Shown here: piece by piece, positions 44,119 to 64,000 of the stretch | Layout: each line of letters starts with the position of its first letter | Position numbering within the stretch: the first letter of the stretch is position 1 | Origin: Stutzerimonas balearica DSM 6083 | Lineage (GTDB): Bacteria > Pseudomonadota > Gammaproteobacteria > Pseudomonadales > Pseudomonadaceae | DNA: 64,000 nucleotides | NCBI RefSeq assembly: GCF_000818015.1 | Contig: NZ_CP007511.1 | Coordinates: 2,094,001-2,158,000, forward strand | Reading direction: 5' to 3' | Position numbers and translations under genes: made by a program | The notes under the pieces: model-generated | What the model saw: the letters and a program-made list of their open reading frames with translations, nothing else | Told to the model about the DNA's origin: nothing | Database searches by the model: none

Positions 44119-45072
44119 TCAGGTGTCGAGCTGGCCCGCCAGGAATTGCATCAGCCGCCGCTGCATCAGCGACGCGGTGCTGCCAAGACAGGCGATCGAG
44201 GTCCCGCGCAGCGCATCGCGGCCGTGCTCGGCTGCTTCGCCGGCCAGCGCCACCGGGCAATTGACCGCGAGCGCGACCTTGCCGAACTGCCGTACCTGCG
44301 GCTCGCCAGGCGGCAAGTTGGAGAACAGCACCAGCGCCTGCGGCTGTACCTTGTCGCAGACCAGCGCCAGCTCGTCCATCGGCTGGCCGAATGGCAACAC
44401 GCTGACGGCCAGGCTGTCGTTACCGAGCAAGAGCCCGGCAATCAGCAGTTCCAGCTCGCGACACTGGCCTGCCACCGCGGCCACCAGCACCCGCTCGCGC
44501 CCCGGAAGCCGGCCCAGTTGCAAGCGCTGCAGGACGCGAGCGCGAAGAAAGGCATCCAGGAACAGCCATTCGCTGGTACGGCCGAATTCGTCCTGACGCA
44601 GCATCAACTCCTGCCATACCGGCAGAAGTACGTCCTGATAGACGATGGCCAACGGGTAGGTCGAAAAGATCTGGCCGTAGAGCTGGTCAAGGCGGGCCTC
44701 GTCGAACTCGGCGACGGCGTTGCGCAGCTGCAGCTGCCATTCGGCCCAGTCGCCGCTGCAGACCTCGGCAGGTGTGGGGGCTTCGGAAGCCGGCCCCGCA
44801 TTGCTGCGCGCGAGCAGGCTGCCGACCTTGCTCACCGCCACACCGCGCTCGGTCCACGCCAGGATGCTGCGCACCGCTTCGACATCCGCCATGGAATAGA
44901 GGCGGTGCCCGCTTTCGGTGCGGGTCGGCTGGATCAGCCCGTAGCGCCGCTCCCAGGCCCGCAGGGTGACGGGGTTGACGCCGGTCAGCCGGGCCACCTC
45001 ACGGATGGGGAACAGCTCGGCTGGTGCCGAAGGGTTGGCTGCTGCGGTGGTCCCGCCGGTGGTCTCGGTCAT
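44119..45072 (-). CDS. MerR/LitR-family regulator without cobalamin motif (first copy)
   Basis: This 317-residue regulator has an N-terminal MerR helix-turn-helix ([20 protein letters not shown]) and a C-terminal region shaped like the helical-plus-Rossmann B12-binding module of CarH/LitR. The B12 signature is missing: the position of E/DxHxxG reads GQCRELEL, and no W-x9-EH is seen. That fits the LitR class reported to depend on a LOV protein rather than adenosylcobalamin. Its recognition helix is identical to that of the regulator at 54828, so both should bind the same TGTACA operators. ATG 45072 is chosen over 45117 for alignment with the family. Confidence 0.87.
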
Positions 45073-45490: not shown

Positions 45491-45622
45491 TGTACAGAAA
45501 TTACGGATTTGTACATGCCTAGAGCCCTAGCGGTGCCGTCTCGGGAGCTCTGCGCGCCGGGAAAACTGTACAACAAACCGAGAAATACTCAAATAACTTG
45601 TACATTCATATTTTGTCGTATA
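45491..45622. promoter_or_regulatory. TGTACA operator array between DUF6482 and folE
   Basis: TGTACA occurs at 45491, 45510, 45567 and 45599. The last pairs with CGTATA at 45617 across 12 bases (site 45599-45622), the spacing seen at the photolyase promoter; the first two are 13 bases apart. TTGTAC (45598-45603) and TATAGG (45619-45624) could be the folE -35 and -10. The motif matches the T(G/A)TACA-N12-TGTA(C/T)A consensus I recall for P. putida LitR proteins. Confidence 0.7.
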
Positions 45623-45658: not shown

Positions 45659-46219
45659 ATGGACACGCTCTCTTCTCAATACCGCGACATCCTCCAAGGG
45701 CTGGGCGAAGACCCCGAGCGTGAGGGCCTGCGCGACACGCCGCTGCGTGCCGCCAAGGCCATGCGCTACCTGTGCAATGGCTACACGAAAAGCCTGGAGG
45801 AAGTCGTCAACGGAGCGCTGTTCGCCTCCGACAACGACGAGATGGTGATCGTCAAGGACATCGAGCTTTATTCGCTCTGCGAACATCACCTGCTGCCCTT
45901 CATCGGCCGCGCGCACGTCGCCTACATTCCGACCGGGCGGGTGCTGGGCCTATCAAAGGTCGCGCGCATCGTCGACATGTACGCGCGCCGCCTGCAGATC
46001 CAGGAAAATCTCACGCGGCAGATCGCCGAGGCGATTCAGGAAGTCACCAGTGCGGCCGGCGTGGCGGTGGTCATCGAGGCGCGACACATGTGCATGATGA
46101 TGCGCGGGGTCGAGAAGCAGAACTCGGTGATGAACACTTCGGTGATGCTGGGCGCCTTCCGCAGCTCCTGCAACACCCGCATGGAGTTCATGCAGCTGAT
46201 CGGGCGGGACCGGGCATGA
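45659..46219 (+). CDS. folE: GTP cyclohydrolase I
   Basis: This 186-residue enzyme converts GTP to dihydroneopterin triphosphate, the first step of folate and pterin synthesis. Zinc and catalytic residues are seen in LCEHHLLPF and in SSCNTRMEF. It is the first gene of a tight operon folE-folX-chalcone-isomerase-like-MFS-DUF3833 behind the TGTACA array. This placement suggests a light-induced isozyme that supplies a pterin, perhaps for the photolyase antenna; that is inference. Confidence 0.92.
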
Positions 46220-49528: not shown

Positions 49529-51397
49529 ATGCTGCAATCGCTGGTAGTCAATGCCCTGCTCCTGCTGGCCATTTGCTGGTTATTCACCTTCAGCCTGCGA
49601 CACCTGGCGCATCACCAGCCTCGGTTGCTTCAGCTGGTCATGGGGCTGTGCTTCGGGGCCGCGTGCATCATCGGCATGCTCGTGCCCTTCACCCTGCAAT
49701 CGGGCCTGATCTTCGATGCACGCAGCGTCGTGCTCGGCATCGCTGCGCTGTTCGGCGGGCCGCTGACGGCCGCGGTCGCCGGTGTGCTGGCGGCCAGCTA
49801 CCGGGTCTGGCTCGGTGGAGTGGGCACCTATGTCGGTCTACTGAGCATCTTCATCCCGATACTCCTGGGCCTGGTGCTGCGTCTGGCTCACGAACGCGGG
49901 CATCTGCCGCTGCGTTTTCTGCCCTTGCTGGCAGCCGGGTTCATCATTCATCTGCCGGTGGTTGCCGTGCAGGCGCTGCTGCCTTCGGGGCTCGGCCTGA
50001 TCGCGGTGAAGACCGTTGCGCTACCCTTTCTGCTGACCCTGCCGCTGGCTACCGCGGTGCTCGGGCTGCTGCTCAACGACCTTGCCGAGCGCGCCCGCAC
50101 CGAGCAGGCGCTGCAACGCAGCGAAGCGCGGCTGAGGGCGATCACGCGGGCGATGCCCGACCTGCTGATGGTGCTCGACGAGGACGGGCGCTATCTAGAA
50201 GTCCTGACGGCCGACAGCCTGTTGCTCTATCAGGAGCCCCACCGGCTCGTCGGGCGCCTGCTGCACGAAGTCTTCGATCCCGAGGATGCCGATCGCTTTC
50301 TTGCCTTCATTCGCCTGACCCTCGAGCGCAACACCCCGCAGCGCATCCGTTACTCGCTGCAGACGCTCGACGGCCTGCGCACCTTCGAGGGCCGCGCACA
50401 GCGACTGGAAACCACCGAGGACGAACGGCGTGCGGTGGTCTGGTGCAGCCGCGACATCACCGAACGCGACCTTGCCGAACAGGAGCGGCGCATCGCCGCC
50501 ATCGCCTTCGAATCGCAGCAAGGCATGTTCATCACCGACCCGCAGGCCTACATCATCCGCGTCAATCGGGCCTTCACACTCATCACGGGCTATAGCGCCG
50601 AGGAACTGATCGGCCAGCCGGCGAGGATGCTTTCCTCCGGTAGCCATGACGAAACCTTCTATGCCGCGCTCTGGCAGCAGATCAAGACCACCGGCTCCTG
50701 GGAAGGCGAAATCTGGAACCGCCGCCGCAACGGCGAGGTGTTCCCCGAGTGGCAAACCATTACCGCGGTGCGCGACGACAACGGCAAGGTCACGCACTAC
50801 ATCGCCACGGTCATGGACATCACCCAGCGCAAGATGGCCGAGGAGCGCATCCATCAACTGGCGTTCTATGACCCGCTCACCAACCTGCCGAACCGCAGGC
50901 TGTTCCTCGACCGGCTGCAGCATGCCCTGGATGCCAGCGAACGCAGCCGGCATTGCGGTGCGGTGATGTTCATCGACCTGGACAACTTCAAGATGATCAA
51001 CGACGCCGGTGGCCACAAGGCCGGCGATCAGTTCCTGCGCCTGGTCGCCGAGCGGTTGCAGAAGGCCGTGCGCCAGAGCGATACCGTCGCCCGCTTGGGT
51101 GGCGACGAGTTCGTGGTGATCCTCGAGGATCTCGGCCAGGAGCCGGAGGAAGCCATCGGTCAGGCCAGCCGTATCGGGGAAAAGCTGCTGGAAAGCCTGG
51201 CCGCGCCTTACTGCATCGGCGAACGCGAGCTGAGCAGCAGCGCCAGCATCGGCGTCGCGCTGTTCCGGGGCGACGAACCGGGCGTGGATGAGCTCATCAG
51301 CCGCGCCGACCACTGCATGTACAACGCCAAGATGAATGGCAAGAACGCCCTGAGCCTGGCCTGCCTGGACGACCCGGTCGCGAGCCGCTCGGCCTAG
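49529..51397 (+). CDS. Membrane diguanylate cyclase with 5TMR-LYT and two PAS domains
   Basis: This 622-residue protein has an N-terminal 5TMR-LYT membrane sensor (about 1-190), two PAS domains (about 205-315 and 330-450) and a C-terminal GGDEF domain. The catalytic motif GGDEF is intact, and an RxxD product-inhibition site (RQSD) lies five residues before it. No EAL domain follows. It should make cyclic di-GMP in response to an intramembrane or PAS signal. It lies 114 bases after the LOV gene; a regulatory link with light is possible but unproven. Confidence 0.9.
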   Translation: MLQSLVVNALLLLAICWLFTFSLRHLAHHQPRLLQLVMGLCFGAACIIGMLVPFTLQSGLIFDARSVVLGIAALFGGPLTAAVAGVLAASYRVWLGGVGTYVGLLSIFIPILLGLVLRLAHERGHLPLRFLPLLAAGFIIHLPVVAVQALLPSGLGLIAVKTVALPFLLTLPLATAVLGLLLNDLAERARTEQALQRSEARLRAITRAMPDLLMVLDEDGRYLEVLTADSLLLYQEPHRLVGRLLHEVFDPEDADRFLAFIRLTLERNTPQRIRYSLQTLDGLRTFEGRAQRLETTEDERRAVVWCSRDITERDLAEQERRIAAIAFESQQGMFITDPQAYIIRVNRAFTLITGYSAEELIGQPARMLSSGSHDETFYAALWQQIKTTGSWEGEIWNRRRNGEVFPEWQTITAVRDDNGKVTHYIATVMDITQRKMAEERIHQLAFYDPLTNLPNRRLFLDRLQHALDASERSRHCGAVMFIDLDNFKMINDAGGHKAGDQFLRLVAERLQKAVRQSDTVARLGGDEFVVILEDLGQEPEEAIGQASRIGEKLLESLAAPYCIGERELSSSASIGVALFRGDEPGVDELISRADHCMYNAKMNGKNALSLACLDDPVASRSA

Positions 51398-52528: not shown

Positions 52529-53455
52529 TCACACATGCCGCAGCTTCTGCCCGCCCGGGCGGGCCAGAAGATCGGTCAACGCCGAATCAAGCTCGCGGAA
52601 ACGGAAGCGATAACCCTCTGCCTCCAATCGCTTGGGCTGCGCGTGCTGCCCACCGAGCAGGAGATCGGCCATCTCGCCCAGCGCCAGCTTCAGCGCGAAG
52701 CCCGGCACCGGCAGCAGCGCCGGCCGGTGCAGCGTGCGGCCGAGCGCGCGGGCGAACTCGGCGTTGCGCACCGGCTGCGGCGCGCACGCATTGTACGGGC
52801 CACTGGCCTGCGGCTGGCAGAGAAGAAAATCAATCAGGCCGATCTGGTCCTGCAGGTGGATCCATGGCATCCACTGCCGACCATTGCCGGTCGGCCCGCC
52901 GAGGCCCAGGCGGAACAGCGGCAGCAGGCGCTTGAGAAAACCGCCGTCTTCGGCCAGTACCAGCCCGGTGCGCACGCGTACGACGCGGATGCCAAGCTGC
53001 TCGGCCTCGCAGGCCGCCTCCTCCCAGGCGCCGCACAGCTGGCTGGCGAAGTCGCCCGTCACCGGCCTGCTGTCCTCGTCGAGCAGGTGTTCGCCACCAT
53101 TGCCATACCAGCCGACGGCCGAGCCGGAGATGAGCACCGCCGGGCGCTCGTCGCGTTCGGCCAGCCAGTCCACCAGACGCTCGGTGAGGTGAATGCGACT
53201 GTCCCAGAGCAGGCGTCGACGGGCCTTGGTCCATGGGCGGTCGGCAATAGGTGCACCGGCGAGGTTGATCACCGCATCCAGCGGCTCGTGAGTGATTTCA
53301 TCGAGCGTGCCGATGCCGCGAACCTGTCGGCCGCAGAGACCTGCCACCTGGCCCGGCCTGCGACTCCAGACGGTGAGCTGATGCCCCTGTTCGAGCCAGT
53401 GGCGGCACAGCGCCCGGCCGATCAGCCCGGTACCACCGGTCAGCAGAATATGCAT
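52529..53455 (-). CDS. TIGR01777/YfcH-type NAD-dependent epimerase
   Basis: This 308-residue extended short-chain dehydrogenase has the nucleotide-binding GGTGLIG at the N-terminus, SGSAVGWYG, and the C-terminal DUF1731 helix bundle. The substrate is unknown. ATG 53455 starts directly at the first beta-strand; the longer frame to 53500 is unlikely. It is the first gene of the reverse-strand pair with hemH and is divergent from the Trp-rich protein. Confidence 0.87.
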
Positions 53456-53509
53456 GGTCCCGCCTCCTCTGTTGGTGCCTGCTCGCTCTGTACTCAGCAA
53501 GCATAGGCC

Positions 53510-53533
53510 TGTACAACTATTTGGGTCTGTATA
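53510..53533. promoter_or_regulatory. LitR-type operator, TGTACA-N12-TGTATA
   Basis: TGTACA (53510-53515) and TGTATA (53528-53533) are separated by exactly 12 bases in the 92-base gap between the divergent epimerase and Trp-rich genes. It can control both directions. Confidence 0.75.
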
Positions 53534-53547
53534 GCCGGTACTGCCCC

Positions 53548-53763
53548 GTGAATCGCTTCAATCCCGCCAAGCTACGCCTATCGAAATGGACCGCCCGCCA
53601 GCCCGTGCGGCGCGAAAAGCACTTTCTCGTGACCGATCTCGAGCACGATGAAGCCGGAACACTACAGCGCGTAGAGCTGCAGGCCGTGTACAGCCAGCGC
53701 AGTGAGTGGATCGACTGGCGCGAGCTGCGCGACGAGCAGCGCTGGAGAATCGGCTGGCACTGA
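53548..53763 (+). CDS. TIGR02450-family Trp-rich small protein
   Basis: This 71-residue protein is recognised by NPAKLRLSKWTARQP, EKHFLV and the C-terminal WIDWRELRDEQRWRIGW. The family is found in marine and photolyase-linked clusters and has no known function. The family begins with MNR.NP, which supports GTG 53548, although no ribosome-binding site is visible and the start lies only 14 bases after the operator half-site. A TTG at 53521 inside the operator is less likely. Confidence 0.75.
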   Translation: MNRFNPAKLRLSKWTARQPVRREKHFLVTDLEHDEAGTLQRVELQAVYSQRSEWIDWRELRDEQRWRIGWH

Positions 53764-53778
53764 CCTCTCACACAATCT

Positions 53779-53852
53779 TGTACATCCCTGTTGACTTGTA
53801 CAACTGCAGGCTTATGATGGCCCCATGTTGTACAAGAAGCAACAGCTGTACA
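53779..53852 (+). promoter_or_regulatory. Photolyase-operon promoter with two TGTACA-N12-TGTACA operators
   Basis: Operator 1 spans 53779-53802 and operator 2 spans 53829-53852, both with perfect TGTACA halves 12 bases apart; their centres are 50 bases apart. A sigma-70 promoter, TTGACT (53791-53796) and TATGAT (53813-53818) with a 16-base spacer, lies between them, with operator 1 covering the -35 and operator 2 just after the start point. This is a repressor-loop geometry. Confidence 0.85.
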
Positions 53853-53871
53853 AGTAAAGTTGGAGGTCGCC

Positions 53872-54825
53872 ATGTCTCACCCCGCCATCAAGATCGGTAT
53901 CAGTGCCTGCCTGGTCGGCCAGCAGGTGCGCTTCAACGGTGGCCACAAAGAGTCGCGGCTGTGCAGCGAAACGCTTGCACAACATTTCCAGCTCTTCCCG
54001 GTCTGCCCGGAAATGGCCATCGGACTGGGTGTACCGCGCGAAGCGATCCGCCTGGTCGGCGACCCGCAGGCACCGCGCGCGGTCGGCAGCCGTCGTCCCG
54101 AACTGGATGTGACCGACGCCCTGGCCCGCTACGCGCGGCAGGTCGCGTCGGAGCTCACCGACATCAGTGGCTTCATCCTCATGCAGAAGTCGCCCTCCTG
54201 CGGCATGGAGCGCGTCAAGGTCTACGGTGCCAATGGCTACGGCCTGCCCGGCGGCGGTAGCGGCATCTTTGCCTCGCACCTCATGCAGGCACGCCCCGAT
54301 CTGCCAGTGGAAGAAGACGGCCGCCTGAACGACCCGGTTCTGCGCGAAAACTTCCTCACCCGCGTCTGCGCCTATGCCGAATGGCAGGCGCTGCTGGCCG
54401 AAGGCATCAGTGCCCGTGCCATCGTCGACTTTCACGCCCGCTACAAGTACCAGCTGATGGCCAACAACCCGCTGCAATACAAGGTGTTGGGGCGGCTGGT
54501 TTCCGAAGCCGGTCGGCAGCCGATCGAGGCGTTCGCCGCGGACTACTTCAGCCGCCTGATGCAGGCGCTGAAGAAGACCGCCACGCGCGGTACGCACAGC
54601 AACGTGCTGCAGCACCTGAGCGGCTACCTCAAGCACGTCCTCAACGCCGAGGACCGGCAGGAAATGCGCCGGCTGATCGACCAGTACCGCGACGGCATCG
54701 TCCCGCTGGTGGTGCCGTTGACCCTGCTCAAGCACCACTTCCGCCGCCACCCGCACCGCTACATCGCCCGGCAGGCCTATCTGCAGCCACATCCGGAAAC
54801 CCTCAGCCTGCGTAACGGAATCTGA
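53872..54825 (+). CDS. DUF523-DUF1722 fusion protein (YbgA-like)
   Basis: This 317-residue cytoplasmic protein has an N-terminal DUF523 (ISACLVGQQVRFNGGHK; QKSPSCGMERVKVY, shown in part, with conserved cysteines) and a C-terminal DUF1722 (about 195-310). The gene is a frequent neighbour of photolyase (ybgA-phr in E. coli). DUF523 proteins have been linked to thiouracil desulfidation, suggesting a possible role in nucleobase or thio-base metabolism. TTGGAGG precedes ATG 53872. It is the first gene of the nine-gene operon. Confidence 0.87.
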   Translation: MSHPAIKIGISACLVGQQVRFNGGHKESRLCSETLAQHFQLFPVCPEMAIGLGVPREAIRLVGDPQAPRAVGSRRPELDVTDALARYARQVASELTDISGFILMQKSPSCGMERVKVYGANGYGLPGGGSGIFASHLMQARPDLPVEEDGRLNDPVLRENFLTRVCAYAEWQALLAEGISARAIVDFHARYKYQLMANNPLQYKVLGRLVSEAGRQPIEAFAADYFSRLMQALKKTATRGTHSNVLQHLSGYLKHVLNAEDRQEMRRLIDQYRDGIVPLVVPLTLLKHHFRRHPHRYIARQAYLQPHPETLSLRNGI

Positions 54826-54827
54826 CC

Positions 54828-55757
54828 ATGAACGACCTCCATCCAGAGCCGCAGGCGTCAGAGCCAGGCTGGTTGCCGATTCGTGAGGTGGCGCGGCTGA
54901 CCGGCGTCAACCCGGTGACCCTGCGTGCCTGGGAACGGCGCTACGGGCTCATCGTGCCCCTGCGTACCGGCAAGGGGCATCGGCTCTACAACGACGAGCA
55001 CGTGGCACGTATCCGCGAGATTCTTGCCTGGCTCAACCGCGGTGTGGCTGTCGGCCAGATCAAGCACCTGCTGGACGCGCGCCAGCCGGTCGAGCATGCG
55101 GAACACAATCCCTGGAGCGAGCTGCGTGAGCAGATGCTTGCCGCCCTCGAGCGCCTGAACGAGCGCCAGCTCGACGACACCTTCAACCGTGCGCTGACCA
55201 TCTACCCGCCGCGCACGCTTTGCCAGCACCTGCTGCTGCCCCTGCTCGACGAGCTGACGCAACGCTGGCAGGGCCAGTTCGGCGCCGCGCTCGAGCGCGT
55301 GATGTTCGAGAGCTGGTTGCGCAACAAGATCGCCATGCGCCTGTACCACAGCAATCGCCAGCAGTCCGGGCCGTCCATGTTGATCGCCAGCCTGGCCGAG
55401 CGCCCGGTCGACCCCGGTCTCTGGTTGACCGCCTGGCTGGTGTCGGCAGTGGCGCCGGTCGAACTGATCGAGCGTGCGGTGCCCTTCGCCGAGCTGGCCC
55501 TCGCACTCGAACGGCTGAACCCCACCGCCCTGCTCCTGCATACCGACCAGAGCCTGGACAAGGCCTGTCTGCAGCGCCAGTTGCCGCGGCTGGCCCGCGA
55601 GGGCGCCGCGCCGCTGGTGCTCGTCGGCCCGGCCAGCCTCATTCACCGCGCTGCACTGGAAGAGGCGCCCGTGCGGCTGGCCGAGGGGCCGCTGCAGGTA
55701 CTGGCGCAGCTGGCCGAGGCCGACCTGCTGGACCCGTCAGAGGAGGATCGGGCATGA
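54828..55757 (+). CDS. MerR/LitR-family regulator without cobalamin motif (second copy)
   Basis: This 309-residue paralogue of the regulator at 44119 has the identical helix-turn-helix ([20 protein letters not shown]) and a diverged C-terminal domain lacking the ExHxxG cobalamin motif. It is the second gene of the operon that begins with twin operators, so it probably represses itself and the photolyase, with release by light through the LOV protein. It starts 2 bases after the previous stop and overlaps phrB by 4. Confidence 0.88.
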   Translation: MNDLHPEPQASEPGWLPIREVARLTGVNPVTLRAWERRYGLIVPLRTGKGHRLYNDEHVARIREILAWLNRGVAVGQIKHLLDARQPVEHAEHNPWSELREQMLAALERLNERQLDDTFNRALTIYPPRTLCQHLLLPLLDELTQRWQGQFGAALERVMFESWLRNKIAMRLYHSNRQQSGPSMLIASLAERPVDPGLWLTAWLVSAVAPVELIERAVPFAELALALERLNPTALLLHTDQSLDKACLQRQLPRLAREGAAPLVLVGPASLIHRAALEEAPVRLAEGPLQVLAQLAEADLLDPSEEDRA

Positions 55758-57181
55758 CCCAACTGATCTGGTTGCGCAGCGATCTGCGTGCGCACGACAA
55801 CACCGCCCTGGCCGCCGCGATGGAGGCCGGCCCGACGTTGGCGCTGTACGTCATCACTCCCGTGCAGTGGCAGGCCCATGACGACGCGCCCTGCAAGGTG
55901 GATTTCTGGCTGCGCAACCTCGCCGAGCTTTCCGCCGAGCTCGGCCGGCTCAACGTGCCGCTGCTGATTCGCCAGGCGGCCGACTGGCAAGCCCTGCCGG
56001 CGGTGTTGACCGGCGTCTGTCGTGAACACCACATCGACTGCGTGCGGGTCAACGACGAGTACGGGGTCAACGAGCGGCGCCGCGACGAGGCCGTGGCCCA
56101 GGCGCTGCAGGGTATCGGCGTGACCTGGCGTCATCACCTCGACCAGCTCCTGTTCACGCCCGGGACGCTGCTGACCCAGTCCGGTGGCTACTTCAAGGTC
56201 TTCAGCCAGTTCCGCAAGGCGGCGCTGGCGCGCCTGGCCCCGGCGTTGCCGCCCTGCGTACCGTTGCCGGCTGCGCAGGCGCCGCTCGGCGTCGCCGCCG
56301 ATCCGGTGCCGACGGGCGTGAGCGGTTTCGACACGCCGAGTGAGGCGTTGCGCGCGCTCTGGCCGGCCGGCGAGCACCACGCGCGCAAGCGCCTGGACGA
56401 CTTCGCCGACGAACGTCTGCGCTACTACGACTGGCTACGCGATTTGCCGGCCCGGGATGGTACCAGCCAGTTGTCGGCCTACCTGGCAGCCGGCGTGATC
56501 TCGGTTCGCCAGTGCCTGCATGCAGTGCTGAGCCGCAATCACGGCGAGCTCGACAGCGGCAACCCGGGCGCCGTGGTGTGGATCAACGAGCTGCTCTGGC
56601 GCGAGTTCTACAAGCACATCCTGGTGGGCTTTCCACGGGTCAGCATGGGCCGTGCGTTTCGCCGCGACACCGAGGCGCTGCCCTGGCGCCATGCCCCGGA
56701 CGAGCTGGCGGCCTGGCAGCAGGGCCGTACCGGCTACCCGATCGTCGATGCCGCGATGCGCCAGCTGCTGGCTACCGGCTGGATGCACAACCGCCTGCGC
56801 ATGGTCGCCGCGATGTTTCTCAGCAAGAACCTGCTGATCGACTGGCGCGAGGGCGAGCGCTGGTTCATGCGCCACCTCATCGACGGCGACCTGGCGGCCA
56901 ACAATGGCGGCTGGCAGTGGAGCGCCTCGACCGGCACCGATTCGGTGCCCTACTTCCGCCTGTTCAATCCGCACAGCCAGTCGCGCCGCTTCGACCCCGA
57001 AGGCCGCTTCCTGCGTCAGTGGCTGCCGGAGCTCGACGCCTTGAGCGACCGCCAGATCCACGACCCAAGCAGCGCCGGCGCGCTGTTCCTGCCCGCTGGC
57101 TACCCGCCACCGATCGTCGACCTGGGCATGAGCCGGGCCCGGGCGCTGGACGCCTTTCGCAACCTGGAGGTGACCACATGA
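55754..57181 (+). CDS. phrB: Deoxyribodipyrimidine photolyase (class I CPD)
   Basis: This 475-residue flavoenzyme repairs UV-induced cyclobutane dimers with blue light. It has the N-terminal antenna domain (LIWLRSDLRAHDNTAL) and the FAD-binding region with INELLWREFYKHI, TGYPIVDAAMRQL, GWMHNRLRM and the WQWSASTGTD segment of class I enzymes. The folE-folX operon could feed its pterin antenna. It overlaps both neighbours by 4 bases. Confidence 0.95.
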   Translation: MTQLIWLRSDLRAHDNTALAAAMEAGPTLALYVITPVQWQAHDDAPCKVDFWLRNLAELSAELGRLNVPLLIRQAADWQALPAVLTGVCREHHIDCVRVNDEYGVNERRRDEAVAQALQGIGVTWRHHLDQLLFTPGTLLTQSGGYFKVFSQFRKAALARLAPALPPCVPLPAAQAPLGVAADPVPTGVSGFDTPSEALRALWPAGEHHARKRLDDFADERLRYYDWLRDLPARDGTSQLSAYLAAGVISVRQCLHAVLSRNHGELDSGNPGAVVWINELLWREFYKHILVGFPRVSMGRAFRRDTEALPWRHAPDELAAWQQGRTGYPIVDAAMRQLLATGWMHNRLRMVAAMFLSKNLLIDWREGERWFMRHLIDGDLAANNGGWQWSASTGTDSVPYFRLFNPHSQSRRFDPEGRFLRQWLPELDALSDRQIHDPSSAGALFLPAGYPPPIVDLGMSRARALDAFRNLEVTT

Positions 57182-57606
57182 GCGCCTTTCTCGAACGCTT
57201 CGCCGAGGGGTTCTCCGGCCTCGATGCCAGCAATCTTCACCGCCTCGGCGAGCTGTACAGCGACAGTGTGCACTTCAGTGACCCGCTGCACGAGGTCTGG
57301 GGGCTGGATGAGCTCGAGCGCTACTTCGCGCAGCTGTACGCCAACGTCCAGGCGCTGGAGTTCGAGTTCTTCGCCTTCGATCAGGTGCGCGACGGTCAGG
57401 GCTACCTGCGCTGGCTGATGACCTACGAACACCCGCGGCTCAAGGGCGGCAAGCCGATCAGCCTGGAAGGTTGCAGCCTGCTGCGCTGGAACCTCGACGG
57501 CAAGGTCGAGCGGCACCGCGACTACTTCGATGCCGGCGCCCTGCTCTACCAGCACGTCCCGCTGATGGGCGGTGCCATTCGCTGGCTGCGCCGGAGGCTG
57601 GTGTGA
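57178..57606 (+). CDS. NTF2/SnoaL-like protein
   Basis: This 142-residue cone-shaped alpha/beta-barrel protein has YSDSVHFSDPLHEVWGLDEL near the N-terminus (shown in part). Relatives sit next to SDR, DUF1365 and Cfa-like genes in light- or singlet-oxygen-induced clusters, and they may bind a lipid intermediate. The function is unknown. Overlaps on both sides imply coupled translation. Confidence 0.82.
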   Translation: MSAFLERFAEGFSGLDASNLHRLGELYSDSVHFSDPLHEVWGLDELERYFAQLYANVQALEFEFFAFDQVRDGQGYLRWLMTYEHPRLKGGKPISLEGCSLLRWNLDGKVERHRDYFDAGALLYQHVPLMGGAIRWLRRRLV

Positions 57607-58367
57607 GCGCGCCCAGGCGCATCTGGCTGACCGGCGCCAGCAGTGGCATCGGCCAGGCAATGGCTGCGCGCCTGCTGGCCGCCGGGCACCGGGTCGCGCT
57701 GAGTGCGCGGCGCGCGGAGCCGCTGCAGGCACTGGCCGAGCGCTACCCGCTGCAGGCGCTGGTGTTGCCCGGCGACCTGACCGACGCCGCTGCGGTGGCG
57801 GGCATGGCCGAGGTCATCGGCGTGCAATGGGGCGCGCTCGACCAGGCGATCCTCAATGCCGGGACTTGCGAGTACATCGAGGCGGGCCGCTTCGATGCCG
57901 CCCTGGTCGAACGGGTGGTGCGCAGCAACCTGATCGCCCCGGCCTACTGCATCGAGGCGGCATTGCCTCTGCTGCTGCGCGGCGACCGGCCTCATATGGT
58001 GGGTGTCGGCAGCTCGGTGACCTGGCTGCCGTTGCCGCGCGCCGAGGCCTACGGCGCCTCCAAGGCAGGCTTGCGCTACCTCCTGCAGGCGCTGCGGCTG
58101 GATCTGGCGGCGCAGGGCGTCGCCGTCACGCTGGTCAGCCCCGGCTTTGTCGACACCCCGCTGACCCGTCGCAACGACTTTCCCATGCCCATGCGCTGGC
58201 CGGTCGAACGCGCCGCGCAACACATTCTCGAGCGGCTCGAACAGCGGCCGTTGGAGATCGCGTTTCCGGCGCCCTTCATCGCCGGTTTGCGCCTGCTTTC
58301 CTGGCTGCCCGCCAGGCTGCAGTTCGCCATTGGCCGCCGGCTGGCGCGGCCTGACTCTCACGGATAG
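57603..58367 (+). CDS. Short-chain dehydrogenase/reductase
   Basis: This 254-residue NAD(P)-dependent oxidoreductase has TGASSGIG (residues 10-17), an NAG-type motif in ILNAGTCEY, catalytic Ser in VGSSVTW and YGASK. It starts with GTG overlapping the previous stop by 4 bases. The substrate is unknown; the neighbourhood points to a fatty-acyl or lipid-linked compound. Confidence 0.87.
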   Translation: MSAPRRIWLTGASSGIGQAMAARLLAAGHRVALSARRAEPLQALAERYPLQALVLPGDLTDAAAVAGMAEVIGVQWGALDQAILNAGTCEYIEAGRFDAALVERVVRSNLIAPAYCIEAALPLLLRGDRPHMVGVGSSVTWLPLPRAEAYGASKAGLRYLLQALRLDLAAQGVAVTLVSPGFVDTPLTRRNDFPMPMRWPVERAAQHILERLEQRPLEIAFPAPFIAGLRLLSWLPARLQFAIGRRLARPDSHG

Positions 58368-58374
58368 ACAGACC

Positions 58375-59622
58375 ATGAAAATCGCCATCATCGGCAGCGG
58401 TATTTCCGGCCTGGCCTGCGCCTACCTGCTCGCCCGTCGGCACGACGTGACCGTGTTCGAGGCCGAGAGCTGGATCGGCGGGCATACCCACACCGTTCCG
58501 GTCGAGTTCGACGGCCGCCACTACCGGATCGATACCGGTTTCATCGTGTTCAACGACTGGACCTACCCAAACTTCATCCGTCTGCTCGACCAGCTCGGCG
58601 TGGCCTACAAGCCGACCGAGATGAGCTTTTCGGTATGCGACCCGGCGAGCGGCACGGAATACAACGGGCACAACCTCAACACGCTGTTCGCGCAGCGGCG
58701 CAACCTGTTTTCGCCGGCCTTCTGGGGCATGCTGCAGGACCTGCTGCGCTTCAACCGCGAGGCCCAGGACGACTTGGTCAATGGCCGGATCGGCCCGCAC
58801 GTGACGCTTGGCGAATACCTGGCCATCGGGCGCTACGGGCAGCGCTTCATCGACCACTACATCGTGCCGATGGGCGCGGCGATCTGGTCCATGTCGCTCA
58901 AGGACATGCTGGGCTTTCCGCTGGAGTTCTTCGTCCGTTTCTTCCGCAACCACGGCCTGCTGTCGGTGAACCACCGGCCGCAATGGTATGTGGTCGAGGG
59001 CGGCTCCAGCGCCTATGTCGAACCGCTGACCCGCAGCTTCGCCGAGCGCATCCGCCGCAGTTGCCCGGTCTACGAGGTACGCCGCGACGCCGAAGGTGTC
59101 ACGCTGCACAGCGCCCTTGGCGTGGAGCGCTTCGACAAGGTGGTCTTCGCCTGCCACAGCGATCAGGCACTGCGCCTGCTGGAGCGCCCGAGCGAAGCGG
59201 AGCAGACGGTGCTCGGCGCCATCGGCTACGCCGATAACGATGTCGTTCTGCATACCGACACCCGCCTGTTGCCCAGCCGCCGGCTCGCCTGGGCCAGTTG
59301 GAACTACCGCCTGGGCGGCCCGCCGCAGCAGCCGGCGGCGGTGACCTACAACATGAACATCCTGCAGGGCATCGAGGCGCCGGAGACCTTCTGCGTCAGC
59401 CTCAACCAGACCCAGGCGATCGACCCGCGACGCATCCTCGCCCGTTTCACTTATGCCCACCCGCAATACAGCCTGACCGCGATTGCCGCGCAGGAGCGTG
59501 TGGAGGAACTGCAAGGCCAGCAACACAGCTACTTCTGCGGTGCCTACTGGGCCAACGGCTTCCACGAGGATGGCGTGGTCAGCGCGCTGCGCGTCGCCGA
59601 AGCCTTCGGAGAGCAGCTGTGA
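58375..59622 (+). CDS. FAD-dependent oxidoreductase (flavin amine-oxidase fold)
   Basis: This 415-residue flavoprotein has the dinucleotide-binding GSGISGLACAYLLA, the second GG motif GGHTHTV, and a C-terminal FAD signature in FCGAYWANGFHEDGV. Homologues lie beside Cfa-like and DUF1365 genes in the singlet-oxygen regulon of Rhodobacter, where this set is implicated in making furan fatty acids from methylated acyl chains. A similar role here is inference. Confidence 0.87.
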   Translation: MKIAIIGSGISGLACAYLLARRHDVTVFEAESWIGGHTHTVPVEFDGRHYRIDTGFIVFNDWTYPNFIRLLDQLGVAYKPTEMSFSVCDPASGTEYNGHNLNTLFAQRRNLFSPAFWGMLQDLLRFNREAQDDLVNGRIGPHVTLGEYLAIGRYGQRFIDHYIVPMGAAIWSMSLKDMLGFPLEFFVRFFRNHGLLSVNHRPQWYVVEGGSSAYVEPLTRSFAERIRRSCPVYEVRRDAEGVTLHSALGVERFDKVVFACHSDQALRLLERPSEAEQTVLGAIGYADNDVVLHTDTRLLPSRRLAWASWNYRLGGPPQQPAAVTYNMNILQGIEAPETFCVSLNQTQAIDPRRILARFTYAHPQYSLTAIAAQERVEELQGQQHSYFCGAYWANGFHEDGVVSALRVAEAFGEQL

Positions 59623-60428
59623 GCACTGCGCTGGCGCACAGCGCGCTCTATTCCGGCTGGGTCCGGCATCGGCGCTTCGCTCCCCGGGCCCATGCGTTTC
59701 GCTATCGCATCGGCCTGCTCTACCTGGACCTGGCCGAACAACAGGCGCTGACCGAGCTGTCGCCCCTGGCCGGGCGGCTGGCGGCGTTCTGCTTCCGCGA
59801 GACCGATTACCTGCCCGAGTTCACCCGCAACGGCACCGGCCTGGCCGATGCGGTGCGCCAGCGCGTGGCCGAAGCGCTCGGCAAGCGGATCGACGGGCCC
59901 ATACGTGTGCTGACACAGCCGCGCAGCTGGGGGCTTTCGTTCAACCCGGTGAGCTTCTTCTATTGCTTCGATGCCGACGAGCAACTGCGCGCCGTGCTCT
60001 GCGAAGTGAGCAACACCCCCTGGCGCGAGCGGTATCACTACGTTCTGCCGGCCAATCAGGTCGGCAAGCTGCGCTGCAGCGTGGCCAAGACCTTCCACGT
60101 CTCGCCATTCCTGCCGCGCGAGCTGGAATACCGCATGCGTTTCACCATTCCCGGCCCGCAGCTGGCCGTGCACATGGAGGATTGGCAGGGCGAGACCCGC
60201 TTGTTCGACGCCACGCTCACCCTCGAACGCCAGGTGCTCGACCGCACTGCCCTGCACCGCCACCTGCTGGCCTTCCCCTGGATGACCGGCAAGACCCTGC
60301 TCGGCATCTACTGGCAGGCCCTGCGCCTGCTCGTCAAACGTGTCCCGCTGTTCGACCACACCGCCGCCATTGGCCACTACGGCGTCGCCACCTCGCAACC
60401 CAGGGAGCCCCGCGATGAAAAGCTCTAG
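59619..60428 (+). CDS. DUF1365 protein
   Basis: This 269-residue cytoplasmic protein is recognised by the N-terminal YSGWVRHRRFAPRAHAFRYR (shown in part) and FNPVSFFYCF. The family almost always lies between a flavin oxidoreductase and a Cfa-like methyltransferase, as here. The function is not established. It starts with GTG overlapping the previous stop and overlaps the next gene by 14 bases. Confidence 0.87.
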   Translation: MSTALAHSALYSGWVRHRRFAPRAHAFRYRIGLLYLDLAEQQALTELSPLAGRLAAFCFRETDYLPEFTRNGTGLADAVRQRVAEALGKRIDGPIRVLTQPRSWGLSFNPVSFFYCFDADEQLRAVLCEVSNTPWRERYHYVLPANQVGKLRCSVAKTFHVSPFLPRELEYRMRFTIPGPQLAVHMEDWQGETRLFDATLTLERQVLDRTALHRHLLAFPWMTGKTLLGIYWQALRLLVKRVPLFDHTAAIGHYGVATSQPREPRDEKL

Positions 60429-61725
60429 CCTGTCTGTCAAAGCCAAACCGATGGCCACCAGCGGCCTGGCCAGCAGCCTGCTGCGGCGTATCGTCATCGG
60501 CCACCTGAAGCGCCTGCGCCACGGCGGGCTGACCTTGGTCGACGGCGGCCAGCGACTGCACTTCGGCGAGCGCGGGCTGCAGGCCGAGATCCGCGTGCAG
60601 GACGCCAACCTCTGGGGGCTGGTCGCCAGCAACGGCTCGATCGGCGCTGGCGAAGCCTATGTGCTGGGTTACTGGACCAGCCACGACGTGACGGCCGTGG
60701 TGCGCCTGTTCGTCGCCAACCTCGAGGTGCTGGACGGCATCGAGCGTGGCCTGGCGTTGTTCGGCCAGCCGGTGGTGCGCGCGCTGCACTGGTTCAACCG
60801 CAACACCCGCAGCGGCTCACGGCGCAACATCGCTGCGCACTACGACCTGGGCAACGACCTGTTCGAGCGCATGCTCGACCGCACCATGATGTATTCGGCG
60901 GCGATGTTCGAAAGCGTCGAAGACAGCCTCGAGCAGGCTCAGCTGAACAAGCTCGAGCGCATCTGCCGCAAGCTGGAGCTCGGCCCTGAGGACCATCTGC
61001 TGGAGATCGGCACCGGCTGGGGCAGCATGGCGCTCTACGCCGCGGTGCATTACGGCTGCCGGGTCACCACCACCACGCTGTCGCGCGAGCAGTACGCCTA
61101 CACCCAGCGGCGCATCGAGGAGCAGGGCCTGCAGGATCGCATCACCCTCCTGCTCGAGGACTATCGCGACCTCGAAGGCCAGTTCGACAAGCTGGTGTCC
61201 ATCGAGATGATCGAGGCAGTCGGGCACCGCTTCCTGCCGCAGTACTTCCGCCAGTGCGCGCGCCTGCTCAAACCCGATGGGCTGATGCTGCTGCAGGCGA
61301 TCACCATCCGCGACCAGCGCTACGAACGCGCTCGGCGCAGCGTCGATTTCATCCAGCGTTACATCTTCCCCGGCGGCGCCCTGCCCTCGGTGCAGAAGAT
61401 GGTCGACCTCGCCACGCGCGAAACCGACATGAACCTGGTGCACATGGAGGATTTCGGCGAGCACTATGCGCGCACCCTGCGCCTGTGGCACGACAACCTT
61501 CGCCAGGCGCGCCAGGAGCTCGAGCAGCTGGGCTACGACGAGCAGTTCTATCGGCTCTGGGAGTTCTACCTGTGCTACTGCGAGGGCGGCTTCCTCGAGC
61601 GGGCCATCGGCACCGCCCAGCTGCTGCTGGCCAAGCCCGCGGCGCACCCGGACGTGCTGGCGTTGCGCGCCGGCAGCGCGTACTCGGCCCAGCCTGGCCG
61701 CATCAAGCATCCGGAGCCGGCATGA
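60415..61725 (+). CDS. Cyclopropane-fatty-acyl-phospholipid synthase-like methyltransferase
   Basis: This 436-residue SAM-dependent enzyme acts on unsaturated acyl chains of membrane phospholipids. The SAM-binding segment is [17 protein letters not shown], and the C-terminal CYCEGGF matches the conserved cysteine region of Cfa. The first motif differs from classic Cfa (GTGWG in place of GCGWG), so it may methylate rather than cyclopropanate, as reported for the furan-fatty-acid pathway enzyme. It overlaps the chemoreceptor gene by 4 bases. Confidence 0.88.
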
Positions 61726-63212
61726 AAGCGAACGACCTGCATGCCCATTTCCGCCAGGCCGACCGCATCATGCTCGGCGTGCTCTGGCTGCTGTTCGCCT
61801 ATGCCCTGGGGCTGGCAGCGTTCAATGGTGGCTGGGCCCAGGCGCTGCTCATTGGCGGGCTCACCGCGGTCAGCGTCAGCGCCCTGCAGGCGTTGGTTCC
61901 CGGTGGGCGCCTGCTGCGCTGCACCGTCGCGGCCGCGTTCATGGTGATGTCGGCGCTGCACATCAACCTGGCGCACGGCCTGCTTGAAATGCACTTCGGC
62001 ATCTTCGTGCTGCTGGCCTTTCTCGTTTATTACCGGGACTGGCTGCCCATCGTCGTCGCGGCGACCACCATCGCCGTGCATCATCTGGCGTTCTTCGCCC
62101 TGCAGCAGCAGGGCACGCCGGTTTATCTGGTACCAGCCGGCAGCTGGGGCGTGATCGCTCTGCACGCGGTGTATGTCGTGGTCGAGAGCGCCATTCTCGT
62201 CTACCTGGCGCTGCGCGCCGCACGTGAGGCGGCCGAGGGCGATGCCCTGATGGCGACTGTCGCCGGCATCACACGCGATGCGCAGCGCTTCGATCTGAGC
62301 GTGCGTCACCGCGGGCGCGGCCTGATCGCCGAACGCTTCAATGGTCTGCTCGTCCAGCTTGGGCAGTTGCTGCATTCGGCGCTTGCCGACGCGGGCCAGG
62401 TAGGCGCCTCTGCCGGACAGTTGCGCGAGGCCACCGCCACCCTGCGCAGCGGCGCGACCGGCCAGCTGGCCGAGGCCGCGCAGATGACCGAGGCCATGCA
62501 GCAGATGAGCCTGGCCATCGATGACGTTGCCGAGCATGCCGATCACGCCGCTAAGGCGGCCGCGGATGCCACCCGCCGCGCCACTGAAAGCCGTGCGTCG
62601 GTGGGCGCGGCGCTGAGCGAGATCGGCCGGCTCGCCGAGCACATCGAAGGGACCGATCAGCGGGTGCAAAGCCTGGTCGCCGAAGTTGCGGAGATCGGCC
62701 GCGTGCTCGACGTCATCAGTGCCATCGCTGCGCAAACCAACCTGCTGGCGCTCAACGCCGCTATCGAAGCGGCGCGCGCCGGCGACCAGGGCCGAGGCTT
62801 CGCGGTGGTGGCCGACGAGGTGCGCAGCCTCGCACGTCGGACTGCCGAGTCGACCGACGAAATCCAGGGCGTCATCGGCCGCCTGCAACTGCAGAGCCAG
62901 CAGGCCAGCCAGGCGATGCAGGAAAGCCGGCAGAGCGTGCAACGCTGCGTCGACGGCAGCCAGACCACGCGCGCGCTGCTGGAGGCCATCGGTGGCGAGA
63001 TCGAGGCCATCTCGCGGATGAACGAGCTGATCGCTGCGGCCACGCATGAGCAGAGCGCAGTTTGTGCGGACGTCGCCAGCCATCTGCGCAACGTCCAGCA
63101 TGTCGCCGAGCGCAACGCCGACGATGCCGGTCGGCTGGATGAACAGGCCGGCCAGCTGCACATCCTTTCCAGCCGCCTGGGGGCGATCGGCTCGCGGTTC
63201 CAACTGACCTGA
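61722..63212 (+). CDS. Multi-spanning chemoreceptor without periplasmic domain
   Basis: This 496-residue methyl-accepting protein has about six N-terminal helices (residues 17-165) with very short loops instead of a periplasmic ligand domain, then a linker and a full MCP signalling domain with [21 protein letters not shown] sensor of this shape should respond to membrane state, redox or energy. It is the last gene of the operon and overlaps the lipid methyltransferase by ATGA, so its expression is tied to photolyase and lipid modification. The ligand is unknown. Confidence 0.85.
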
Positions 63213-63246
63213 TCGCGCCCCCGAATGGGGAGTCGTACGGCCGTGG

Positions 63247-63263
63247 CGCACTCTCGTGGTTCA
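63247..63263 (+). promoter_or_regulatory. Possible NtrC-binding site
   Basis: CGCACT-CTCGT-GGTTCA resembles the NtrC dyad TGCACC-N5-GGTGCA and centres about 144 bases upstream of the expected sigma-54 start point, a usual enhancer distance. The match is imperfect. Confidence 0.4.
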
Positions 63264-63372
63264 TGCGCACTGGCCGGGTCGGCCCGGCCGGGGCTGTAGC
63301 GATAGCGCTCAGGTGACCCGGCAACGGCTCTGTGCCGCGCCTTTCCAGCCTTCGCCAGCGCTTTTCGGAATC

Positions 63373-63388
63373 TGGCACGCAACCTGCT
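63373..63388 (+). promoter_or_regulatory. Sigma-54 promoter of nirB
   Basis: TGGCACG-CAAC-CTGCT matches the RpoN consensus TGGCACG-N4-TTGCW at all but one base, with the invariant GG and GC exactly 10 bases apart. Transcription should begin near 63399, leaving a leader of about 209 bases. Confidence 0.85.
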
Positions 63389-63432
63389 TATCCCTAGGCA
63401 CAGGCCGCTCCCGATGCGAGTGGCAGTCCCGG

Positions 63433-63497
63433 GTGGTCAGCGTCGACCACTGCGCCCCAAGGCGGCGGGACAGTGCGATCCGGGCAACGGGGCTCGG
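63433..63497 (+). ncRNA. Dual-hexaloop ANTAR (NasT-type) leader RNA
   Basis: Two hairpins each close a six-base loop with A at position 1 and G at position 4: GTGGTC-AGCGTC-GACCAC (63433-63450) and CCGGGC-AACGGG-GCTCGG (63480-63497, one wobble pair). This is the defining pattern of RNAs bound by ANTAR antiterminators. With the terminator at 63532 it forms a nitrate/nitrite-responsive antitermination switch. Confidence 0.82.
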
Positions 63498-63531
63498 GCG
63501 AATCGACACAAGAAACCTACGAATACCAGGC

Positions 63532-63570
63532 AAAGGCGCCTGGGGCCGGCAGCGGCTCCAGGCGCCTTTT
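63532..63570 (+). terminator. Leader terminator before nirB
   Basis: GGCGCCTGGGGCC (63535-63547) pairs with GGCTCCAGGCGCC (63554-63566; one wobble/mismatch) and is followed by five T residues. It lies in the nirB leader 38 bases before the start codon and would stop transcription unless antiterminated. Confidence 0.9.
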
Positions 63571-63607
63571 TGTTTTGCGGACCGAGCGGTCCGGCGGAGG
63601 AACGGCT

Positions 63608-64000
63608 GTGAATTCGATCGTCACCCCGATCAAGCGAGAAACCCTGATCATCGTCGGCAACGGCATGGTCGGCCACCACTGCGTCGAGCAACTGGTCGAG
63701 CGCGGCGCGCTGGGACGTTACCAGGTGCATGTCTACGGCGAGGAGCGCCAGCGCGCCTACGACCGCGTGCACCTGTCCGAATACTTCGGCGGCCGCGATG
63801 CCGAGTCGCTGGCCATGTGCGAGGCCGACTACTACACCAGCCACGGCGTGCAGGCGCACCTCGGCGTGCAGGTGCTGGAGATCGATCGCGAGCGCCGCGA
63901 AGTGCTTACCAGCGTCGGCCGCCAGCCTTACGACAAGCTGATTCTCGCCACCGGCTCCTATCCCTTCGTACCGCCTATTACCGGCGCCGAAGGCAATGCC
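63608..64000 (+). CDS. nirB: Nitrite reductase large subunit NirB, N-terminal fragment
   Basis: This is the start of the assimilatory NAD(P)H-nitrite reductase large subunit, which reduces nitrite to ammonium in the cytoplasm. The 131 codons seen include the FAD-binding LIIVGNGMVGHHCVEQL, the RAYDRVHLSEYF segment typical of NirB, and KLILATGSYPFVPP. GTG 63608 is the likely start (GGAGG lies 9 bases upstream). The gene runs past the window end. Control by sigma-54 and an ANTAR leader fits nitrogen-source regulation. Confidence 0.9.
   Translation, partial: MNSIVTPIKRETLIIVGNGMVGHHCVEQLVERGALGRYQVHVYGEERQRAYDRVHLSEYFGGRDAESLAMCEADYYTSHGVQAHLGVQVLEIDRERREVLTSVGRQPYDKLILATGSYPFVPPITGAEGNA

Follow-up and report, generated by a model that had tools for sequence, protein, structure and literature searches.

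A chemoreceptor gene as a very probable member of the LitR light regulon in Stutzerimonas balearica and its relatives

The operon described here lies in a stretch of 64,000 nucleotides from Stutzerimonas balearica DSM 6083 (NCBI RefSeq assembly GCF_000818015.1, contig NZ_CP007511.1, forward-strand positions 2,094,001 to 2,158,000), which at its full length is called the window. The operon ends in a gene for a methyl-accepting chemotaxis protein (MCP) which very probably, judging from operators at related genes, belongs to the LitR light regulon. Its closest described counterpart is found in Pseudomonas mendocina, where nine genes, PME6650–PME6610, are predicted to form one transcript (PMC9758184; this and the other papers cited are quoted from the portions available). 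Going by the locus numbers, the gene order there is hypothetical, pmlR1, phrB, hypothetical, short-chain dehydrogenase (SDR), flavin adenine dinucleotide (FAD) oxidoreductase, hypothetical, ufaM and hypothetical. Quantitative PCR at three time points gave blue-light inductions of 26.7–33.2-fold for phrB, 25.0–33.2-fold for ufaM and 5.7–10.1-fold for pmlR1 (PMC9758184, Table 1). The mapped promoter, P6650, reads TTGACT-N16-TATGAT, and the repressor footprints two T(G/A)TACA-N12-TGTA(C/T)A sites, one at the -35 box and the other between the transcription start and the ATG (PMC9758184). In this species, which has the regulators PmlR1/PmlR2 and PmSB-LOV, a short LOV protein relieves the repression (PMC9758184).

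Related regulons have been described in other pseudomonads. In P. putida, class II LitR proteins of the PplR1–3 regulon control phrB, ufaM and folE2 (Sumi et al. 2020, via PMC9758184 and PMC8508746); the window shares with this regulon both class II LitR control and the binding consensus, and the available portions of those two papers do not mention a chemoreceptor output. In P. syringae DC3000, blue light is reported to induce five MCPs via LOV and BphP1 (Santamaria-Hernando et al. 2020, via PMC8508746), so that the idea of light-regulated chemoreceptors in pseudomonads has a precedent. That case and the window have in common blue light and chemoreceptor expression in a pseudomonad, whilst neither a LitR operator nor operon membership is mentioned in the available portion of PMC8508746. 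In the available text of the open-licence papers searched, no LitR operon or regulon was found described as including an MCP. The new element here is the chemoreceptor, conserved within the LitR operon and very probably part of the regulon; the first eight genes are already known.

The features of the locus are as follows.

53779..53802, + strand: LitR-type operator Site 1, exact TGTACA-N12-TGTACA, overlapping the -35 box
53791..53818, + strand: sigma-70-type promoter TTGACT-N16-TATGAT, boxes and spacing the same as in mapped P6650
53829..53852, + strand: LitR-type operator Site 2, exact TGTACA-N12-TGTACA, between the predicted transcription start and the first ATG
53872..54825, + strand: rudS, fusion of a TudS desulfidase (DUF523) with DUF1722 (Pfam 2-thiour_desulf and DUF1722)
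54828..55757, + strand: litR, class II LitR/PplR1/PmlR1-like MerR repressor (Pfam MerR_1 and B12-binding_2)
55754..57181, + strand: phrB, deoxyribodipyrimidine photolyase (Pfam photolyase)
57178..57606, + strand: NTF2/SnoaL-like protein (Pfam SnoaL_2)
57603..58367, + strand: SDR, GTG start (Pfam adh_short)
58375..59622, + strand: FAD-dependent amine-oxidase-like oxidoreductase (Pfam Amino_oxidase)
59619..60428, + strand: DUF1365 protein, GTG start (Pfam DUF1365)
60415..61725, + strand: Cfa-like fatty-acid methyltransferase, cfa/ufaM (Pfam CMAS)
61722..63212, + strand: MCP, six-helix histidine-rich membrane domain (residues 1-185) followed by an MCP signalling domain (Pfam MCPsignal)
63532..63569, + strand: intrinsic terminator-like hairpin of 17 pairs, 3' of the MCP gene (sequence scan)

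The nine genes form a single run on one strand (53872–63212, +), in which neighbouring genes either overlap or are separated by no more than 7 bases. A gap of 2 bases separates rudS from litR; overlaps of 4 bases join litR to phrB, phrB to the NTF2-like gene, and the latter to the SDR gene. A gap of 7 bases then precedes the FAD oxidoreductase gene, which overlaps the DUF1365 gene by 4 bases; the DUF1365 and cfa genes overlap by 14, and cfa and the MCP gene by 4 (ATGA). The gene 3' of the MCP gene has a Pyr_redox_2 match and is labelled by us a nirB-like reductase.

By sequence, the first eight genes are a class II LitR light operon of an already published type. The gene set is complete and in one run: rudS, litR, phrB, NTF2-like, SDR, FAD oxidoreductase, DUF1365 and ufaM. 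The regulator combines MerR_1 with B12-binding_2, its only Pfam matches, among which the cobalamin-binding B12-binding domain is absent; this is the composition of class II LitR as given in the available text of PMC9758184. Operators conforming to T(G/A)TACA-N12-TGTA(C/T)A lie over the -35 box and past the predicted transcription start, which by analogy with P6650 would be at about 53824. The window and the P. mendocina operon thus have the same eight-gene set (the order there following from locus numbers), the same promoter boxes, two operators equally placed, and overlapping or close cistrons (PMC9758184). They differ in the ninth gene, an MCP in the window and a hypothetical protein in P. 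mendocina, and the main text of PMC9758184, so far as available, does not contain the words chemotaxis, motility or phototaxis. Since gene set, promoter boxes and operators equal those of an operon induced by blue light, the light reading of the window operon is sound, and its control by blue light would follow by analogy with PMC9758184. The initial annotation, made from the sequence alone, had proposed a nine-gene light-response operon with tight junctions behind a single promoter with twin TGTACA operators. The coordinates and a Pfam match for each gene bear out its account of gene order, strand and junctions, both operator pairs are exact, and the available text of PMC9758184 upholds the light response, the gene set, boxes and operators being the same.

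Two of the assignments within the operon are by comparison. The rudS product is by homology a putative tRNA 4-thiouridine desulfidase, the source for the RudS function being PMC11417400 in its available part. For the Cfa-like protein no NCBIfam cyclopropane synthase model reaches its curated cut-off, and the gene is taken as probable ufaM from the matching position in the P. mendocina operon. The lipid gene set of this kind in Rhodobacter sphaeroides has a role in light stress. There, RSP1087–1091 includes UfaM, UfaD and UfaO of the furan fatty acid pathway and is raised in a chrR mutant (PMC7380195); it shares with the window the lipid set with a UfaM-type methylase, is linked to ChrR and not to LitR, and comes with no mention of an MCP in the available portion of that paper.

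The operators are rare in the genome as a whole. The pattern TTGTACA-N9-13-TTGTACA occurs in just two places in 4.38 Mb, Site 1 and Site 2, and the looser TGTACA-N11-13-TGTACA in four, those two sites and two more (reversed control, 1). Within the window TTGTACA occurs 16 times against 0.84 expected. A promoter consensus scan of 53500–64000 gave the boxes at 53791–53818 a score of 10/12, with a weaker + strand match in cfa (9/12); the scan alone proves nothing, because shuffles average 1.0 matches, and the boxes count as a promoter because they equal those of the mapped P6650. Terminator-like sites over the same range numbered three, against 4.6 in shuffles, the only one on the + strand being 63532–63569. 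A TTGTACA half-site at 53510–53516 lies just 5' of a divergent gene labelled by eye as epimerase-like (52529–53455, -), and in two other genomes (G228 and G232, loci L121 and L123; G and L denote genomes and loci of our sample) a full operator lies between a similar epimerase-like gene and a divergent FAD oxidoreductase. A further exact LitR-type pair occurs in the window genome at C1:310240–310263 (L126:1501-1524), between a divergent gene which by eye encodes an MCP with a PAS-like N-terminus, starting about 358 bases away, and one which by eye resembles the gene of a TAXI-type transporter binding protein, starting about 170 bases away.

The MCP N-terminus was matched in 93 of a sample of 298 genomes of the family; within the genus of the window, rudS was found in 48 of 56 genomes and the MCP in 31 (an E cut-off of 1e-60 was applied in one genus-wide count of these two genes and in the ufaM search). 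Of 32 other MCP loci fetched from the genus, 27 place the gene just 3' of the light operon on the same strand, so that with the window the arrangement is present in 28 of 56 genomes, half of those in the genus. In the tree these operon-linked MCPs group together as a single branch (27 rows including the window; support of 93 in the SH-like approximate likelihood ratio test, SH-aLRT, by a quick method); from the tree L021, at a contig end, and L109 (G074), with an interrupted frame, had been left out, both being shorter than 300 residues. In G168 (L052) and G217 (L054), ufaM is followed by the nirB-like reductase (Pyr_redox_2) with no MCP gene between, and the same reductase adjoins the 3' side of the MCP gene in the window, G133 and G210; since ufaM there meets the same reductase directly, the MCP gene is a discrete gain or loss. 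In G015 (L051) a DUF2878 gene occupies the place after ufaM. The MCP is therefore an optional but strongly placed part of the operon. Unlinked members of the MCP family, without operators, occur in five genus genomes (L042, L046, L048, L049 and L050; N-terminus 55–57% in the local search).

The link of the MCP is to the light operon and not to the lipid enzyme, because nine of the 28 linked loci lack ufaM, which is present in 19 (18 of 27 without the window). Some of the nine keep only rudS and phrB, or rudS, litR and phrB, and several are without all five genes that follow phrB, yet the MCP stays beside rudS/phrB. No close ufaM was found elsewhere in these nine genomes among the matches listed, the best having E values of 4e-61 to 5e-65, against less than 1e-200 for orthologues. 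In relatives the gap before the MCP gene is 16–70 bases after ufaM, and 74–314 bases after phrB, NTF2 or FAD oxidoreductase genes where ufaM is missing; the 4-base overlap with cfa occurs in the window only, among the relatives examined. Conservation of the MCP gene beside cfa, on which the initial annotation had staked its proposal beforehand, is found in 18 further genus genomes with ufaM/cfa followed by the MCP. Its suggestion of translational coupling through the overlap does not extend to these relatives, and its pairing of the receptor with the lipid methyltransferase is not supported, given the nine genomes that keep the operon MCP without ufaM and the Pseudomonas orthologues, which lie elsewhere.

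Among the MCP orthologues retrieved from beyond the genus sample most stand alone, and these are chiefly from Pseudomonas. In the family-genome set, a consensus operator pair begins 41–106 bases before the start codon at seven of 67 stand-alone loci. A species-named set, the best 80 of 126 relatives, comprised 20 operon-linked and 60 stand-alone loci; when the latter were split at 61% identity, a threshold set with the data in view, a pair was present no more than 300 bases upstream in 16 of the 31 at or above it and in none of the 29 below. Operator-bearing loci include those of P. alcaligenes, P. guguanensis, P. peli and P. xionganensis. Orthologues from such species as P. amygdali and P. 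cerasi, which we take to belong to the P. syringae group, have no operator; DC3000 is not among them. With both sets merged and identical proteins removed there were 106 distinct stand-alone loci, the 47 operon-linked loci being unmerged and partly from shared genomes. The exact N12 operator lies within 200 bases upstream of 15 of the 106, where 0.018 would be expected from its single occurrence in the 1,148,862 bases outside those stretches; none appeared there in any of 200 shuffles, which kept base composition only. For N11-13 the figures are 18 against 3 elsewhere (0.055 expected; shuffle mean 0.005). Start codons in relatives were set by script as the start nearest the aligned N-terminus, so distances measured from them may err by some codons. 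By eye, several stand-alone genes have a TATAAT- or TATACT-like box just before the operator, as at operon Site 2, and others do not. It is because these orthologues carry their own LitR-type operators far above chance that the MCP is assigned, with high probability, to the LitR light regulon.

Each of 11 genomes searched has between 2 and 7 TGTACA-N11-13-TGTACA pairs, as against 0 or 1 matches of the reversed control. When 33 of 44 operator neighbourhoods were screened, rudS was found in 11, other operon genes in 2, the same MCP in 2 and another MCP in 1; the remaining 17 contained none of these, so that about half of the sites have neighbours of no identified kind. In G109 an operator (L120:1501-1524) lies about 117 bases before the ATG of a CHASE3-HAMP-MCP, possibly a second light-regulated MCP; the exact N12 pair is absent in 12 of 38 relatives of G109. 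Loci L117 and L118 gave no MCP match in the local search.

The light input is less readily placed. P. mendocina has PmSB-LOV (PMC9758184), whereas the canonical LOV motif, sought as a GxNCRFLQ DNA pattern that misses divergent LOV domains, was not found in the window genome. The pattern matched none of eight genomes in a first search, and 63 of the 298 family genomes and 6 of the 56 in the genus; the 63 matches show that it works. BLUF (PF04940) was found in three of eight genomes and in none of the four genus members searched, the window genome included. Neither LOV nor BLUF thus seems to be present in the window genome, which suggests that its light input awaits discovery.

Other genes of interest lie upstream of the operon. 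A second LitR-like MerR gene (44119–45072, -), 8.8 kb away and 37% identical to the LitR of the operon, is divergent from folE (45659–46219, +). The region between them contains TGTACA-N13-TGTACA at 45491–45515 and further TTGTACA sites at 45567 and 45598, which makes folE a probable member of the light regulon too. A gene for a diguanylate cyclase with 5TM-LYT, PAS and GGDEF domains (49529–51397, +) precedes the operon by about 2.4 kb.

The receptor itself has a clear MCP signalling domain (PF00015, 139.6 bits; cut-off 34.6) behind a sensor domain predicted to be membrane-embedded. Residues 1–194 matched no Pfam family, neither MHYT nor another named membrane sensor, and the N-terminal domains of 66 relatives gave scattered weak Pfam matches, the best being Peptidase_M50B at 5.9e-4 (8 of 66 at E<=1). 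In an alignment of 65 of the 80 species-named loci, near-identical and short rows having been dropped, H91, H120, H121 and H148 of the membrane bundle are invariant and H80 is mostly kept, along with E89. These residues appear to lie in the outer half of the membrane bundle, which suggests a metal, haem or redox-type ligand. By fold, the domain best matches the membrane domain of a diguanylate cyclase, for which the available source names no ligand; among the closest described systems is the six-helix membrane domain of ImcA from P. aeruginosa (8wcn; PMC10904736), with which an ImcA/Rv1625c-like six-helix fold may be shared. HtrVIII, an aerotaxis transducer of Halobacterium for which haem has been proposed, likewise has six membrane helices and an MCP domain, and differs in being archaeal and cytochrome oxidase-related (PMC13401364). 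No light-sensing domain was found among the Pfam and NCBIfam matches of the MCP, which is therefore more likely installed by light than itself a light sensor. Nor is a cognate rhodopsin of the Htr type encoded among the eight genes before it, the gene after it being the Pyr_redox_2 reductase.

We consider it likely that the class II LitR operon of pseudomonads, directed against light damage, has here acquired a chemoreceptor of its own as one more output under LitR control. By analogy with P. mendocina, LitR repressors would occupy both operators in the dark and block the promoter. In blue light repression would be lifted, and one transcript would yield RudS, which would remove near-ultraviolet-sensitive 4-thiouridine from tRNA, photolyase, a lipid-modifying set whose last member is UfaM, and the MCP. 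This receptor would then presumably join the chemoreceptor arrays, giving lit cells a new steering input and tying their swimming to a signal relevant under light. Because no light-sensing domain was matched in the protein, its input is most likely not light but something that light brings about chemically (metal, haem, oxidant or redox change); the actual stimulus and the direction of movement are guesses, and the phototactic or photophobic response and the reading of membrane or redox state suggested in the initial annotation are likewise conjecture. Several observations weigh against this reading. Neither a canonical LOV motif nor BLUF was found in the window genome, and among the 28 genomes with a linked MCP the LOV pattern occurs in G204 only, so that the light input of P. 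mendocina can be carried over here only tentatively. Where ufaM is missing, co-transcription of the MCP gene would have to cross the long gaps noted above. Of the rudS-bearing genus genomes, 20 of 48 have no MCP behind the operon, and an exact operator is missing upstream of 91 of the 106 distinct stand-alone orthologues. In the tree, moreover, rows with and without an operator are interspersed, and the 15 loci, being related, do not count as independent events; LitR control is thus confined to part of the receptor family.

The missing linked MCPs, the operator-less orthologues and the range of gaps before the gene, from an overlap to 314 bases, would also be expected of an ordinary chemoreceptor that came by chance to follow the operon and, though transcribed by read-through, plays no part in the light response. 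We think this unlikely, since the MCP is kept beside rudS/phrB in the nine linked loci without ufaM and unlinked orthologues have LitR-type operators far above chance. It is also improbable, and slightly more so, that the MCP, as the initial annotation suggested, reads the membrane change made by the Cfa/UfaM protein of the same operon. Its predicted membrane-embedded sensor domain and the position of ufaM directly before it in 18 of the 27 other linked genus loci would suit such a sensor, but in the other nine ufaM is absent, the Pseudomonas orthologues lie away from the operon, and the overlap with ufaM is peculiar to the window. The least probable alternative has the MCP itself absorbing light, for example via haem or a porphyrin on the conserved histidines, and driving a photophobic response. 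The invariant histidines and the glutamate in the membrane bundle would be compatible with this, and E. coli receptors without a known chromophore are reported to respond to blue light (PMC8508746), but no light-sensing domain was matched, and the fold match is to a diguanylate cyclase domain with no ligand named in the available source.

Setting these aside in favour of the LitR-regulated chemoreceptor, a broader reading can be offered tentatively, as one which may well prove wrong. A LitR switch would command not repair alone but behaviour too: once exposed to light, Stutzerimonas and related Pseudomonas would install a dedicated receptor with a hitherto undescribed histidine-rich six-helix sensor binding a metal, haem or redox ligand and so steer away from photo-oxidative conditions, with the gene either an operon member or stand-alone with its own operator, and in G109 with a CHASE3-type MCP as well. 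LitR regulons have been known as systems of repair and protection. If the reading is true, light sensing by a transcription factor would be tied to directed movement in non-phototrophic bacteria of soil and water, and the receptor need not be a photoreceptor. An orphan receptor family would gain a testable context and the LitR field a behavioural output to assay, and light may thus alter what these bacteria swim towards or away from.

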